A DNA stretch of 12,623 nucleotides from Candidatus Fermentibacterota bacterium (lineage in GTDB: Bacteria > JAFGKV01): positions 1 through 12,623 of the forward strand of contig JAUXFG010000112.1 in NCBI GenBank assembly GCA_030620115.1, given 5' to 3'. Below, one piece after another: positions 6,628-11,066 of this stretch (the stretch's first letter is position 1; every line of letters starts with the position of its first letter). The notes under the pieces were generated by a model. It saw only the letters and a program-made list of their open reading frames with translations, had not been told where the DNA came from and did not search any database. A program made the position numbers and the translations under genes.

Positions 6628-6817
6628 TAAGGGTTCGCAGTCTTGGTGCACAGATTTGCCGCAGAATTGATCTCCCCCATGTAGGGGCATCCGCCAGCTG
6701 GCGGACCGTGCCCACGGGCCTGCCACGGCGGAGCCTTAGCGCAGACCGGAGGCGTAGTCCCGCGTACCGCGCGGGATGAAGACGGGATCAAAATGTGAAG
6801 TCATTTCTGCGCAAACC
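6628..6817 (+). repeat. MITE/REP-like dispersed element, copy 1
   Basis: This roughly 190 bp element is shared with 10395-10559 in the opposite orientation. Shared blocks include TAAGGGTTCGCA, GCACAGATTTGCCGCAGAATTG-like (6649-6670), CCCATGTAGGGGCA, GCGGGATGAAG and an AAATGTGAA block. Its ends are imperfect inverted repeats: GGTTTGCGCAGAAATG from the 6817 side against GGTTCGCAGTTATGG-like in the other copy. The middle holds the 16-base palindrome TCCGCCAGCTGGCGGA (6690-6705) in a stretch about 40 bases longer than copy 2. It fills the gap between the anchored Ig-like gene and the MAM-domain gene, ending 28 bases before that ATG. No transposase is encoded. Confidence 0.75.
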
Positions 6818-7288
6818 ATAGGGTCGATCAGGCGGATCCGGAAGCTGGTCTTTCCCGTTACCATCACCTTTTGCCCCGATGACAACCACCGCGACTGCTC
6901 CTCCCACCACTGCACCGCCAATAGCCAACCACAGCGTCTTTCTTCCATCTTTTCTCGTGCTTTGACTTGAAGGCATGGGAAGAACCGTACTTTCGAGAAA
7001 CTCTACGGCTGGGCTCACCGTGACCATGATGTAGGATTCGTCATCAGGATAGCGATCCATTTGCTTCCCATTGCCTGCGACCGCGGAAAGATAGTACTCC
7101 ACCCCTGGCGGCGAGACCATCCCTCCAGGAATCTCCGCAGTCTGGATCTTCCCCCTCTCACTCTGAAATGGGGCGGACTGAGACATCTCTTCTCCGACAC
7201 GGCGATAGTGGAGCAGCGTGGTGGCATCCCATCCCGAAATCTGGTCTACCGAAACCAGTACCGGATCACGGGCCTGTGCCCGGATCAC
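6788..7288 (-). CDS. Ig-like domain protein with C-terminal membrane helix, N-terminus uncertain
   Basis: The ORF from GTG encodes 166 residues. Residues 1-92 form an Ig-like domain similar to the one in the frameshifted 805-residue protein nearby (LLHYRRVGEE, AEIPGGMVSPPGVEYYLSAVAGNG, PDDESYIMVTV). Residues 119-138 are a Gly/Ala/Val-rich transmembrane helix (LWLAIGGAVVGGAVAVVVIG) after a basic patch, followed by a short tail LPDPPDRP. The domain homology starts 5 codons before the GTG (IHHTP), where the frame hits a TGA. An ATG at 7310 with GGGAGG 9 bases upstream is one base out of frame, so the 5' end probably carries a one-base change and any signal peptide is missing. The last 10 residues and the stop come from repeat copy 1. 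Function unknown; probably envelope-anchored or a gene remnant. Confidence 0.6.
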   Translation of the reverse strand: MIRAQARDPVLVSVDQISGWDATTLLHYRRVGEEMSQSAPFQSERGKIQTAEIPGGMVSPPGVEYYLSAVAGNGKQMDRYPDDESYIMVTVSPAVEFLESTVLPMPSSQSTRKDGRKTLWLAIGGAVVGGAVAVVVIGAKGDGNGKDQLPDPPDRPYGLRRNDFTF

Positions 7289-7781
7289 CGGCGTGTGATG
7301 AATCCGTCATGTGCGTTATCCTCCCTTGCAGAGAACAATCACCGTCTTAGGGTTCGCATTCCCTCATGGGAATGCCGGCAGCGGCACCTGGTGGTCCGCA
7401 GCGCTACGCTCCAAGCGTGCCACACAGCAAACGGTGACCACACCAAACGAAGCTCTGGGGGGAATGACCAATTAGTCAAGTCTGGCTGTTCACGCACCGA
7501 TTCGCTGCCAACGCAAAGGGTAACCCAATTAAAAGTGTCCACGGCGTGCTAAACGCTGTCATTCTGAGGGAGCGAAGCGACTGAAGAATCTGCAATTTCG
7601 TCCGATCGGATGCACTGAACTGATTAAGTTTCTGCGCAGGAACTTAATCAAATAACTGAACACCAAACAGAGGGCGTTGGATCGTTGTTTCGTTCTCAGG
7701 CACGGCATACCATGCCCACATCTTCACCAATCATCCCACTTCCTCAGCAGCTTATCAGCTCAGCAGCTCAATTCCCACTCC
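7289..7781. repeat. 490-base gene-free spacer made of palindromes and repeat fragments
   Basis: No convincing gene is present. From left to right it holds TTAGGGTTCGCA (7347-7358), matching one end of the dispersed element; a hairpin GCATTCCC-TCAT-GGGAATGC (7356-7375); a GC-rich stretch with GGTGGTCCGCAGCGCTACGC; the widely dispersed bacterial intergenic motif around ATTCTGAGGGAGCGAAGCGA (7561-7580); the 30-base palindrome at 7621-7650; GGCACGGCATACCATGCCC, a decayed version of the centre of repeat copy 2 (about 7700-7718); and a CAGCAGCT-rich stretch (7744-7768). It looks like a landing zone for mobile repeats. Confidence 0.6.
7621..7650. repeat. 30-base palindrome flanked by 7-base direct repeats
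   Basis: The left arm TGATTAAGTTTCTGC and right arm GCAGGAACTTAATCA pair over 15 positions with a single mismatch (T7631/G7640, a G-U pair in RNA). ACTGAAC occurs directly before it (7614-7620) and again 4 bases after it (7655-7661). The centre has no unpaired loop, so a protein site or cruciform is likelier than a terminator, and no T-run follows. Confidence 0.6.
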
Positions 7782-9833
7782 TCAGGGCAAGACTATACCG
7801 AAATCAAACTCGCCAAGCCGGTTGGATCTTCCCATCTCTAGCGGTGAGGAATCCACGGCAATGACCAAGTACACCCAGTTGGTGTCAGGATCACCGATTC
7901 CGTAGTCACTCGTCCAAGTGGCGGTCTCAGGAGGAAGCTCTTCCAACCTGTACTCATAGGGGGCGTCCAATCCTGGGTTGAACACCGGGTCTTCCGCACC
8001 ATAGACCCAGTATGCTGAGGCGCCCCAACAAGGAGTCCAGGACAGTATAAGATCCGTGCCGGAGAGGACGCCTGAGAGGAGGATATCATCCGTGTGAAGG
8101 CTCATCTTGCCAAATGCCGTCAGGCTGTCACCCGCATCATCCCACAGCGTAAGGCGAAGATCGTAGTCACCTTGATTCATTCCCGCGGTATTCCATACGG
8201 CGAGGGTATCGTTGTAGAATTCGGTTGTTGATTCCTCTATCAGTGTCCATGTGGAGCCGCTCTCTGGTGTCCAATACACCCCGTACCTGTCGAAACCAAT
8301 CGCACTGGAGGGCCCCGCATCGATCCACGCTGAACCGAATATGGCAATGGCATGGTCCACCAAGCCGATGAAGGGGCTATCAATAGCCGCTACCATTACC
8401 AGTGACGTATCAAGAGCCTCGGGTATGTAGTCAAAGTAGGAATTCACTGCCAGAAGATAAGAATGGCCATGGGCGAGATTCGTGGATTGATATGGCCAGA
8501 GCGGAACAACGGTGCTGTTCACCAATAGGAAGGTCGCTCTATCCCACGAACTCATAAACGCATAGCTAGCCCCATCGATGAATGAGAGGAACGCACTATC
8601 TTCCACACATAGAGTTACCGTAGCGCCATCGTGGATACAATTTGTTGCATAGGTCTCGGACCTATTCCTGCCGATCATCTCACCGAAAATGCACGCGTCA
8701 ATGTTGAACACCGTGGTTTCCATCGGATACCAGTTCCACCAGTAGACATAGGTATTTATGTACTCAACATGTCTGTCCTCAAGGGGAACTAAAAGATCCA
8801 GGTGCATTGCATAGTTAGCTATGTCGCTCACGTTGACGGTATCGGATCCGGGTATTCTCAGACACGAACCTCTTATTATTGAGTTGTTGATCGTGACCGA
8901 ACAGCCGGGAAATGTCTCCAGAGACCACCAGCATCGGCTGCAGGCATCGGCAAGGAATGTGTAGCCGATACCGTCCACGCCGGGCGCCGCGTCGGAGAAC
9001 TCGAAGCTCTCCACGTAATCCGGATCCGGAAACTGGAAGTCTATGACTGAACCATCCGGGGTTTGAAACCATGGCATCAACGTATCACATCTCGTGAAGT
9101 GCACGAAGCAGGAATCGCTCACCATGATGTCACCGACGTGACAGACGTCTTCGAGCAAGAGTGTTGCCCGATCGAAGACTTTCCTGAAGGTCCAATCGGG
9201 GAAAACGGTGTTCTTGGCTGTATAGACACTGTGATCATGCAGCTGGGCAAAGTGCATGACCCCGTTCGCATCAACTGTGGCGTCGGTGGCCTCAAATGTA
9301 GCGTTTTCTACAAGCCAGACATAGTACTGCCCCACATACGACTGGTTGAAATGCAGGTGCGCATGGTTTCGAAAGATGGCCTTTCCGGAATCCGCCGCGA
9401 CCAGGCTTCCAGACAGAGTGAGTCGCGCATTATCTACCAGAAGCACTCCTTGCCCGAAGATGACGATATCACCGTCTTGCACATGATCGGTCTCAATGCG
9501 CAAGGTGTCGGGGCCGGGGCCTATGTAGAGAGTATCCCTCTGATTGGGCGCAGCATCCGAGTTCCTGTCTCGTGGGGAGGTAACCCTGTACGTGGGGACC
9601 GCTCTGCTTTCAAGTGTCTCCCTGCTGTATCCCTCCATCGGCAATCCCCTTGGAGCGGAGCGGCTTTGATGGCCAAGAATCCCCCCCTTCGCCCTTGTCG
9701 CAAGACAAACCTTATCAACCTTGTCCTGGGGAAATGCGATCGCGCCAAAGGCGACGCTCCATGGATCCCATAGCAACACACCCATAATCATCGCTACAAA
9801 AAGCCTAATCTTTCCCCTTGATGATTGTCGCAT
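7782..9833 (-). CDS. Large exported beta-helix-like protein with C-terminal FN3-like domain
   Basis: This is a 683-residue protein. Its ATG has GAGGT 7 bases upstream. Residues 1-30 form a signal peptide (IRLFVAMIMGVLLW ending SVAFG). Residues 100-520 consist of many short strand-turn repeats rich in Asn, Asp, Ser, Thr and aromatic residues, with recurrent patterns such as LLVDNARLTLSG, VWLVENATFEATDATV, VTINNSIIRGS and VTLCVEDSAFLSFIDG. These are typical of right-handed parallel beta-helix proteins (pectate-lyase or adhesin type). Residues 580-683 form an FN3-like domain (LILSWTPCWGASAYWVY, YLVIAVDSS, SNRLGEFDF). No catalytic residues are identifiable and no sorting domain with YPNPF is present, so it is a surface or periplasmic protein of unknown role. 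It follows the TPR gene after a strong hairpin. Confidence 0.8.
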   Translation of the reverse strand: MRQSSRGKIRLFVAMIMGVLLWDPWSVAFGAIAFPQDKVDKVCLATRAKGGILGHQSRSAPRGLPMEGYSRETLESRAVPTYRVTSPRDRNSDAAPNQRDTLYIGPGPDTLRIETDHVQDGDIVIFGQGVLLVDNARLTLSGSLVAADSGKAIFRNHAHLHFNQSYVGQYYVWLVENATFEATDATVDANGVMHFAQLHDHSVYTAKNTVFPDWTFRKVFDRATLLLEDVCHVGDIMVSDSCFVHFTRCDTLMPWFQTPDGSVIDFQFPDPDYVESFEFSDAAPGVDGIGYTFLADACSRCWWSLETFPGCSVTINNSIIRGSCLRIPGSDTVNVSDIANYAMHLDLLVPLEDRHVEYINTYVYWWNWYPMETTVFNIDACIFGEMIGRNRSETYATNCIHDGATVTLCVEDSAFLSFIDGASYAFMSSWDRATFLLVNSTVVPLWPYQSTNLAHGHSYLLAVNSYFDYIPEALDTSLVMVAAIDSPFIGLVDHAIAIFGSAWIDAGPSSAIGFDRYGVYWTPESGSTWTLIEESTTEFYNDTLAVWNTAGMNQGDYDLRLTLWDDAGDSLTAFGKMSLHTDDILLSGVLSGTDLILSWTPCWGASAYWVYGAEDPVFNPGLDAPYEYRLEELPPETATWTSDYGIGDPDTNWVYLVIAVDSSPLEMGRSNRLGEFDFGIVLP

Positions 9834-9885
9834 TTCTGTTACCTCATTCCGCTTTTTCCCATCCGTTTGCCGGTCTTCGCAAATG

Positions 9886-9934
9886 GGGATTGGGGTTAGC
9901 CCCGCACTTCTGTGTGAGGCCCCGCCCCAATCCC
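9886..9934 (-). terminator. Strong stem-loop between the TPR and beta-helix genes
   Basis: GGGATTGGGG (9886-9895) pairs perfectly with CCCCAATCCC (9925-9934). An inner GGGGTTAGCCCC (9892-9903) can form a competing hairpin. On the minus strand it lies 13 bases after the TPR stop and about 50 bases before the beta-helix ATG. No clear T-run follows, so it could be an attenuator or mRNA-processing stem rather than a standard terminator. Confidence 0.4.
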
Positions 9935-9946
9935 GGGGTGGAAGCG

Positions 9947-10369
9947 CTACTTTGCGTTCTCCCGAATGAGTTCTCGGAGCATCCTGATCGCCTCGGTGGA
10001 CTTGCCGGATTTCTTGAGCATGTCCGCCAATTGGAGCCTGATCAGATTCCGGACTGGTTTGCTGCCTGTCTCCTTAAGAATCTCCTGGAACACTTCCACT
10101 ACCTCGTCCTTACGACCAGCATCCTCGTAGAGGTCCTTGAGCTGGAAGATCGCGAATCCCGCTGTGCGCGTATCGTCTGCCGCAATATCCTGCATCTGCC
10201 CGGTCAGGGTCACATACTTCTCCATGATATTGAGGAAGCCTATTACTCCTTCTACGTCTGCAGCGGACTTGTCGGCAGCCAGAGCAGTGCTCCATCCAAG
10301 AGAAATAATGGCGGCTATCAGCACGATAAGAAGCGCGGCTCCGGGCATAGATCGATGTTGGTGCTTCAT
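9947..10369 (-). CDS. Small exported TPR-repeat protein
   Basis: This is a 140-residue protein. The ATG at 10369 is chosen because AGGAG lies 7 bases upstream and the signal peptide follows at once (GAALLIVLIAAIISLGW, cleavage probably after ALA near residue 31). An upstream in-frame ATG (10402) would add 11 residues that derive partly from repeat copy 2. The mature part is all-helical, with two tetratricopeptide-like units: AGFAIFQLKDLYEDAGRKDEVVEVFQEIL and NLIRLQLADMLKKSGKSTEAIRMLRELI (second half of the protein; given in parts because of length). Such domains hold protein partners in the periplasm. Partner unknown. It lies two genes downstream of the sigma factor, separated from the anti-sigma gene by repeat copy 2. 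Confidence 0.75.
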   Translation of the reverse strand: MKHQHRSMPGAALLIVLIAAIISLGWSTALAADKSAADVEGVIGFLNIMEKYVTLTGQMQDIAADDTRTAGFAIFQLKDLYEDAGRKDEVVEVFQEILKETGSKPVRNLIRLQLADMLKKSGKSTEAIRMLRELIRENAK

Positions 10370-10394
10370 GATAAAGCTCCTTTCTTGTGGAAGG

Positions 10395-10559
10395 GGTCGC
10401 ACAGGAATAATTTCACATTTGACATCCCATCTTCATCCCGCGCAGTACGCGGAACTACGTCTCCGGTGGGCACGGCATGCCGTGCCCCTACATGGGGAGA
10501 CCAATTCTGCGGCAAATCTGTGCGCCATAACTGCGAACCTATCCCTGTGCGAACCCTAA
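10395..10559 (-). repeat. MITE/REP-like dispersed element, copy 2
   Basis: This 165 bp copy is inverted relative to 6628-6817. Its outer ends read GGTCGCACAGGAATAATTTC (from 10395) and GGTTCGCAGTTATGGCGCAC (reverse strand, from about 10538), which are imperfect inverted repeats, followed outward by TTAGGGTTCGCA. The centre is the perfect 20-base palindrome GGGCACGGCATGCCGTGCCC (10468-10487), different from the centre of copy 1. It fills the gap between the anti-sigma gene, whose last codons and stop lie inside it, and the TPR gene, whose ATG is 26 bases further on. Confidence 0.75.
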
Positions 10560-11066
10560 ACGACTTGGGCATGTCGGCATCGAGAAATCGATCGAAGGAA
10601 TCTCGCAACTTGGTGGCATACTGATGCTGAGGGCCGATCCCAATGAATCCATGGGGGACAACCCCCAAGGATTCACCAAGTTGGAGATCCCTCTTGCTCT
10701 CAGTATGTCGTATTCTCCGGACTGTTGAGGAAAATGTCGTCCTTGCCCCATCCAGAGCAGAAAAAAGGCCACACACGCCGCTGCGGGGAGAACCCAGGCG
10801 AGTCTCCACCACGTTCTCCGTTGAGGAAGCTCCTCGAGCCGGGTTTGGATCTGGGCAAAGGCATTTTCTGGATACCGTGTCTCGCGATACCGTTGCCCTG
10901 CGGCGTTCAGCGTTGCCTGGAGGTCGCGTAGTTGGCTCACGGCAGCCGCGCATTCAGAACACTGCTCCAGGTGCCGTTCGACCCCGGCCTTCTCTGCGGA
11001 AGGAAGATCTCCGGTCACATAGCGCTCCAGGGTGAAGGGCTGGAGGTGATTCTCTGGTTTGCTCAT
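10539..11066 (-). CDS. Membrane-bound zinc-finger anti-sigma factor
   Basis: This is a 175-residue protein encoded directly after the ECF sigma factor, with a 4-base ATGA overlap (11063-11066), so the two are translationally coupled. The N-terminus is a zf-HC2/ZAS anti-sigma domain: LERYVTGDLPSAEKAGVERH, then H32-x3-C36-x2-C39 (HLEQCSEC). Residues 86-106 form one transmembrane helix (LAWVLPAAACVAFFLLWM), leaving about 65 residues outside as a possible sensor tail. Such proteins hold their partner sigma at the membrane until a signal releases it. The last 7 residues and the TAG lie in repeat copy 2. An alternative frame over the tail (GESLGVVPHGF, KLRDSFDRFLDADMP) also looks protein-like, so the original C-terminus may have been lost or frameshifted. 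Confidence 0.85.
   Translation of the reverse strand: MSKPENHLQPFTLERYVTGDLPSAEKAGVERHLEQCSECAAAVSQLRDLQATLNAAGQRYRETRYPENAFAQIQTRLEELPQRRTWWRLAWVLPAAACVAFFLLWMGQGRHFPQQSGEYDILRARGISNLVNPWGLSPMDSLGSALSISMPPSCEIPSIDFSMPTCPSRLGFAQG

Follow-up and report, generated by a model that had tools for sequence, protein, structure and literature searches.

A dispersed MITE with REP-free, REP-bearing and tip-exchanged centres in a Candidatus Fermentibacterota genome

The 12,623-nt stretch of DNA analysed here (the window) carries two copies of a repeated element in opposite orientation, each located between co-directional genes and each providing the stop codon of the transcriptionally upstream open reading frame. 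The frames concerned are the minus-strand ORFs at 6788-7288 and 10539-11066, whose C-terminal residues and stops are encoded by the ends of the element, such that the insertions seem, judging from these frames, to have re-cut the ends of both proteins. The initial annotation had described two inverted copies with common ends and differing centres, and this is borne out: copies 1 and 2 have a 46-nt and a 44-nt arm in common, with 91% identity in either. Between the arms lie the slots listed below, where ‘REP-A’ (or core A) denotes the 24-mer GTAGGGGCACGGCATGCCGTGCCC and ‘MITE’ the element as a whole.

6628..6820, plus strand: MITE copy 1, including TWA-type target triplets (from arm identity and a blastn family in its own genome)
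6631..6677, plus strand: left arm of copy 1, with a shortened terminal repeat (by comparison with 42 copies with paired terminal inverted repeats)
6681..6713, plus strand: slot 1 of copy 1, REP-A with exchanged tip, GTAGGGGCA[TCCGCCAGCTGGCGGA]CCGTGCCC
6690..6705, no strand assigned: the exchanged palindromic tip TCCGCCAGCTGGCGGA, centre of copy 1 (from sequence match and genome count)
6719..6748, plus strand: slot 2, an optional 30-nt module, CCTGCCACGGCGGAGCCTTAGCGCAGACCG, in copy 1 and missing from copy 2
6754..6777, plus strand: slot 3 of copy 1, GTAG-headed hairpin GTAGTCCCGCGTACCGCGCGGGAT
6778..6817, plus strand: right arm and right terminal repeat of copy 1 (from arm identity)
7347..7358, plus strand: possible 12-nt MITE-end fragment TTAGGGTTCGCA (from sequence)
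7698..7721, minus strand: decayed REP-A outside recognisable MITE copies (18/24 identical)
10391..10559, minus strand: MITE copy 2, the element reading along the minus strand (from arm identity and dispersed copies)
10391-10409 and 10540-10558: terminal repeats of copy 2
10435..10458, minus strand: slot 3 of copy 2, hairpin GTAGTTCCGCGTACTGCGCGGGAT
10468..10491, minus strand: slot 1 of copy 2, intact REP-A GTAGGGGCACGGCATGCCGTGCCC
10492..10543, minus strand: left arm of copy 2 (29/29 to the arm consensus at 10497-10525)

The centres of the two copies differ exactly as first reported, copy 2 having the palindrome GGGCACGGCATGCCGTGCCC (10468-10487) where copy 1 retains the REP head and stem base around a tip replaced by TCCGCCAGCTGGCGGA, but the differences do not end there: copy 1 also carries the 30-nt module and has lost 16 nt from its left end, deleted between two GGTTCGC repeats relative to the 42 copies with paired terminal repeats. 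The target triplets of copy 1 are degenerate (TAA on the left, ATA on the right). A second hairpin, TCCCGCGTACTGCGCGGGA, is common to both copies in slot 3, with one mismatch in each (6754-6777 and 10435-10458). Shuffled windows contained none of the diagnostic modules, the loosest end-repeat patterns excepted. Between the two copies, the decayed core that had been suspected near 7700-7718 is real, and the proposed end fragment at 7347-7358 is plausible and insecure, as its 12 nt are missed by the longer end-repeat search. The region from 7300 to 7780 has the appearance of a repeat graveyard; further repeats, GTCATTCTGAGGGAGCGAAGCGACTGAAGAATCT and the palindrome GATTAAGTTTCTGCGCAGGAACTTAATC, lie between two genes at 7558-7591 and 7622-7650.

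Searching the whole genome (4.1 Mb in 296 contigs) yielded at least 81 left-arm copies, and their dispersal over the genome rules out a local duplication and supports the earlier proposal of a dispersed non-autonomous element with exchangeable centres. Arm matches with three or fewer mismatches number 64, against 0 for a reversed control in the same genome, and the end repeat is matched 139 times. The family unit is about 185 bp long, and its forms, mostly of 133-250 bp, occur on many contigs. Both ends are present in 42 copies, where imperfect terminal inverted repeats of about 30 bp have one and the same consensus at left and right. The aligned ends read C-T-W-A-GGGTTCGCGCAGGAATA on either side, with W being A or T evenly; the ends begin with GGG, and the element border is TWA followed by GGGTTCGCGCAGGAATAGGTTCGCA... 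A scan for target duplications of free length gave weak signals only, but the signal became clear once the ambiguous base was compared across aligned ends: the two ends have the same W in 25 of 31 copies (p = 4e-4), in all 11 scorable copies that combine a REP-free (GAG) slot 1 with a AAGCTACG / AAGCTACGTCGAGG slot 3, and in all seven copies where TWA is present at both ends (unequal in 0). Equal W at the two ends points to a 3-bp TWA target duplication. The family is thus a MITE, that is, a short, non-coding, multi-copy, dispersed element with terminal inverted repeats and a target duplication. With a total length of 150-220 bp, terminal repeats and a target duplication, the whole element is not a REP (a single 20-40 bp palindrome), and, as a correction to the original label, ‘MITE/REP-like’, the arms are not REPs.

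A 3-bp TNA target duplication is also characteristic of IS1031-type elements of the IS5 family (PMC12016507), and MITEs of that type resemble the present family in this duplication and in their short inverted ends. No transposase with these ends was found, and we do not claim membership. Among about 100 listed of the 139 end repeats, in an assembly of 296 pieces, no inward-facing pair at insertion sequence distance marked an autonomous partner. The arms have no exact match in 84,980 other species or in viral contigs, copy 2 has no match in the plasmid set, and the known range of the MITE is thus far this bacterium plus one genome of a sister genus. Its size variants include 44-bp end-to-end copies, which are the shortest forms (L181, L182), and forms of about 110 bp that lack most of the right half (L055, L079, L073, L146, L054), whose junctions at GGCG/GCG are as expected from deletions at short direct repeats. 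Larger composites (L187, L183, L197) have MITE ends around other dispersed repeats, for example GTCATTGCGAGG...GCGACGAAGCAATCTC.

Could such a structured element instead be selected as RNA, for example as a terminator or mRNA stabiliser, with its hairpins free to vary as long as they remain paired? The predicted folding of each window copy is stronger than that of all 200 of its shuffles (z = -3.6 and -4.2), and, of the 29 intergenic copies that could be classified (by rough gene calling), 21 have co-directional genes on their two sides; both observations would suit this explanation. We nevertheless hold it to be very improbable, given the target duplications, the terminal repeats, the 44-bp end-to-end and partial copies, and alternative centres that are discrete sequences found outside the element too. 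This last observation also divides the initial suggestion of a core that ‘is replaced or evolves fast’: replacement is supported and fast evolution is not, as the alternatives are discrete palindromes also present elsewhere in the genome. An effect of the MITE on host mRNA is possible.

REP-A consists of a GTAG head and the palindrome GGGCACGGCATGCCGTGCCC, which is within the 20-40 bp expected of a REP palindrome, and a GTAG head followed by a palindrome is the definition of the GTAG REP superfamily (PMC3733652); the centre of copy 2 is, by its sequence, a GTAG-headed REP. Like the GTAG REPs and RAYTs of that survey (PMC3733652), it combines this structure with high copy number and, in other genomes, with adjoining RAYT genes. 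The exact 24-mer occurs in at least 117 stretches from at least 21 named phyla, including the cultured Nitrosomonas halophila and Nostoc, and one record among these stretches (L214-L330) is labelled archaeal. In IMG/VR it is present in 13 stretches, as compared with 0 for each of three palindromes of equal make-up. REP-A adjoins Y1_Tnp genes in L242 (on either side and within the gene), L299 and L236, and lies in frame within such genes, 6-12 residues past the HUH motif, in Chlorobiota (L242, L299), Nitrosomonas (L303) and G026; a Y1_Tnp-like gene of G011 has a two-base variant of REP-A in frame after the motif. Of six RAYT-like frames examined, four are confirmed by Pfam's model of Y1_Tnp; recognition of those from G011 and Omnitrophota depends on our own profile. 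In-frame REP palindromes 5-12 residues after the HUH motif were seen at L242:4476-4964, L299:5-364, L303:1290-1748, L113:1281-1772, L116:1286-1750 and L208:1219-1695, and peptides read from REPs within RAYT genes include RGTACRAPT, RARHAVPLQ and VGAGLKPAL. The REP inserted in the L208 RAYT gene differs from REP-A and matches the REPs that flank the same gene. Our literature search for the core, end and RAYT-peptide sequences returned nothing relevant.

Within its own genome, REP-A stands alone at about nine sites (one of them a doublet) with unrelated flanks and clean GTAG...GCCC borders, so that core A has been mobile here by itself. This genome has four Y1_Tnp genes, of which none is flanked by REP-A and one is flanked by another GTAG palindrome. 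Its sole bona fide RAYT (L149:1204-2841, a 187-aa frame) has the flanking palindrome GTAGGTCGGGTTAGC...TAACCCGAC, and GTAGGTCGGGTTAGCGCAGCGTAACCCGAC, or a variant of it with one base changed, occurs four times in its flanks. This different palindrome led us to reject the RAYT of this genome as the driver of core A. A REP need not have its cognate RAYT in the same genome, and such a lack is common (PMC3686654). Neither hairpin B nor tip T is present in 0.93 Mb of loci from other genomes or beside the Y1 genes of this genome, except for tip-T near-matches several hundred bp from the L150 gene.

The clean borders of solo REP-A would also suit a different route, in which a RAYT or similar HUH enzyme put hairpins directly and independently into many MITE copies, with the hairpin or its GTAG head as target. 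GTAG opens both core A and the hairpins of slot 3, TnpA-REP is known to cut single-stranded DNA beside GTAG palindromes (PMC8266576), and three MITE copies (L012, L028, L099) contain the palindrome that flanks the bona fide RAYT. However, the junctions of REP-A in MITE copies are near-constant (CAT/GTAG...GCCC/ACCGG, slashes marking the borders), which argues for one entry and later spread, and the palindrome beside the only bona fide RAYT is a different one; we consider direct and repeated insertion of this kind unlikely.

The order of events can be approached through the three states of slot 1, which is REP-free in 23 copies, holds REP-A in 35 and has the tip-exchanged core in 18, frequencies that are biased by the use of the window copies as queries. 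The phylum is represented by three genomes in the collection searched (G000, which is this genome, G001 and G002), and REP-A, with 46 occurrences in G000, is absent from both G001 and G002. One full MITE copy is present in G001, of a sister genus (L106); it is REP-free, with a slot 1 of GAGGGAGCGA type and a slot 3 of AAGCTACGTCGAGG type, and resembles a G000 subfamily. Contamination from the present species was rejected as its source, the flank of this copy being absent from G000 and G002 in a search without a positive control. This one outgroup copy and the G000 subfamily, together with the absence of REP-A from G001 and G002, make the REP-free form probably the ancestral one. As for the exchanged tip, TCCGCCAGCTGGCGGA has 112 occurrences in the genome, and 15 sampled sites comprise six in MITE copies and nine in at least four other settings. 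Most copies with this core share an identical 3-nt asymmetry, which suggests that the exchange probably took place once and then spread; L006 is symmetric, and in L096 the core is inverted.

Across the family, with four types distinguished in slot 3, 11 of the 12 possible combinations with slot 1 are present, which implies recombination, barring recurrent identical replacement. The association between the slots is not nil (chi-square p = 0.002), mainly due to two REP-free cassettes travelling together. On a tree of the arms, which at 68 nt has little power and is used as support only, the labels of slot 1 require 31 changes (33.7 +/- 2.4 when shuffled, hence near random) and those of slot 3 require 32 (31.6 when shuffled). 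Replacement in place is indicated most directly by an apparently allelic pair: contig C34 at its end and contig C230 at its start show one locus with the same MITE insertion and a flank that is 93-94% identical, where essentially only slot 3 differs, although these are contig ends and the pair may reflect strain variants or an assembly effect.

Such swaps might also arise by template switching during replication between palindromes with only a stem base in common, a process that would exchange tips with neither a transposase nor long homology. The alternatives in slots 1 and 3 do share their stem bases (GGGCA/TGCCC and CCCGC/GCGGG) and differ in their tips, the inverted core of L096 is turned across that very stem, and the internal deletions end at GGCG/GCG repeats. 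But REP-free slot 1 lacks the GGGCA/TGCCC stem, leaving the first entry unexplained, and the sole allelic swap involves a whole cassette bordered by the MITE skeleton, such that we find template switching by itself a doubtful explanation.

We infer, with reasonable confidence, a DDE-type MITE that was colonised by a REP and whose hairpin parts were then reshuffled among copies by recombination. A DDE-type transposase, inserting at TWA and duplicating it, would have spread a MITE whose ancestral centre, to go by the G001 copy and the G000 subfamily, was presumably without REP. REP-A, presumably moved by a RAYT, would then have entered slot 1 in this lineage, probably once, as the near-uniform junctions in the MITE suggest of a sequence that also stands alone elsewhere. 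The tip of REP-A would subsequently have been swapped for the other palindrome, and slot 3 would have received several alternative hairpins. Homologous recombination in the form of gene conversion could have shuffled these cassettes from copy to copy, the skeleton and stem bases that all have in common providing the homology, and the window pair would represent two combinations drawn from the resulting pool.

Parts of this arrangement have precedents. REPs, mostly as dimers, were described within palindromes of A. variabilis, T. roseum and H. neapolitanus, and the same survey reported that the self-complementary loops of some REP families come in alternative versions (Di Nocera et al., 2013; PMC3733652). 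In contrast to those three cases, for two of which the survey found no palindromes free of REPs, the REP here resides in a genuine MITE that has duplicated its target and also exists in REP-free copies, and several different hairpins use the same slots. BOX elements of pneumococcus (PMC3049150), Correia elements and BIMEs are likewise dispersed, non-coding and built of variably combined modules, but BOX varies chiefly in how often one internal module is repeated, whereas here palindromes of different origin alternate in fixed slots. Thus REPs in palindromes, alternative loops and modular repeats are known, and the novelty lies in a MITE whose target duplication can be demonstrated, which has relatives without REP and in which several unrelated hairpins use the same slots.

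By its ends and its target duplication the MITE points to a DDE transposase, and by its centre to a RAYT. Two unrelated kinds of bacterial mobile DNA, the one a MITE of DDE type and the other a REP linked to RAYTs, are merged here in one amplified unit. More speculatively, and as a possibility that we hold only tentatively, REP-A may be a sequence-frozen hairpin that crosses phyla with a RAYT lineage carrying its own REP in the gene just after the HUH motif, and that docks in whichever local MITE is active, such that MITE and REP spread one another and hairpin cassettes become a currency shared by unrelated repeats. The cross-phylum 24-bp core and its presence in RAYT genes suggest that some REPs have travelled more widely than the family survey indicated (eight phyla, all families together). 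As REP-free, REP-bearing and tip-exchanged versions coexist in this genome, the order of events can be read, and the family offers a testable system for the movement and change of REP hairpins, which have so far been poorly understood.
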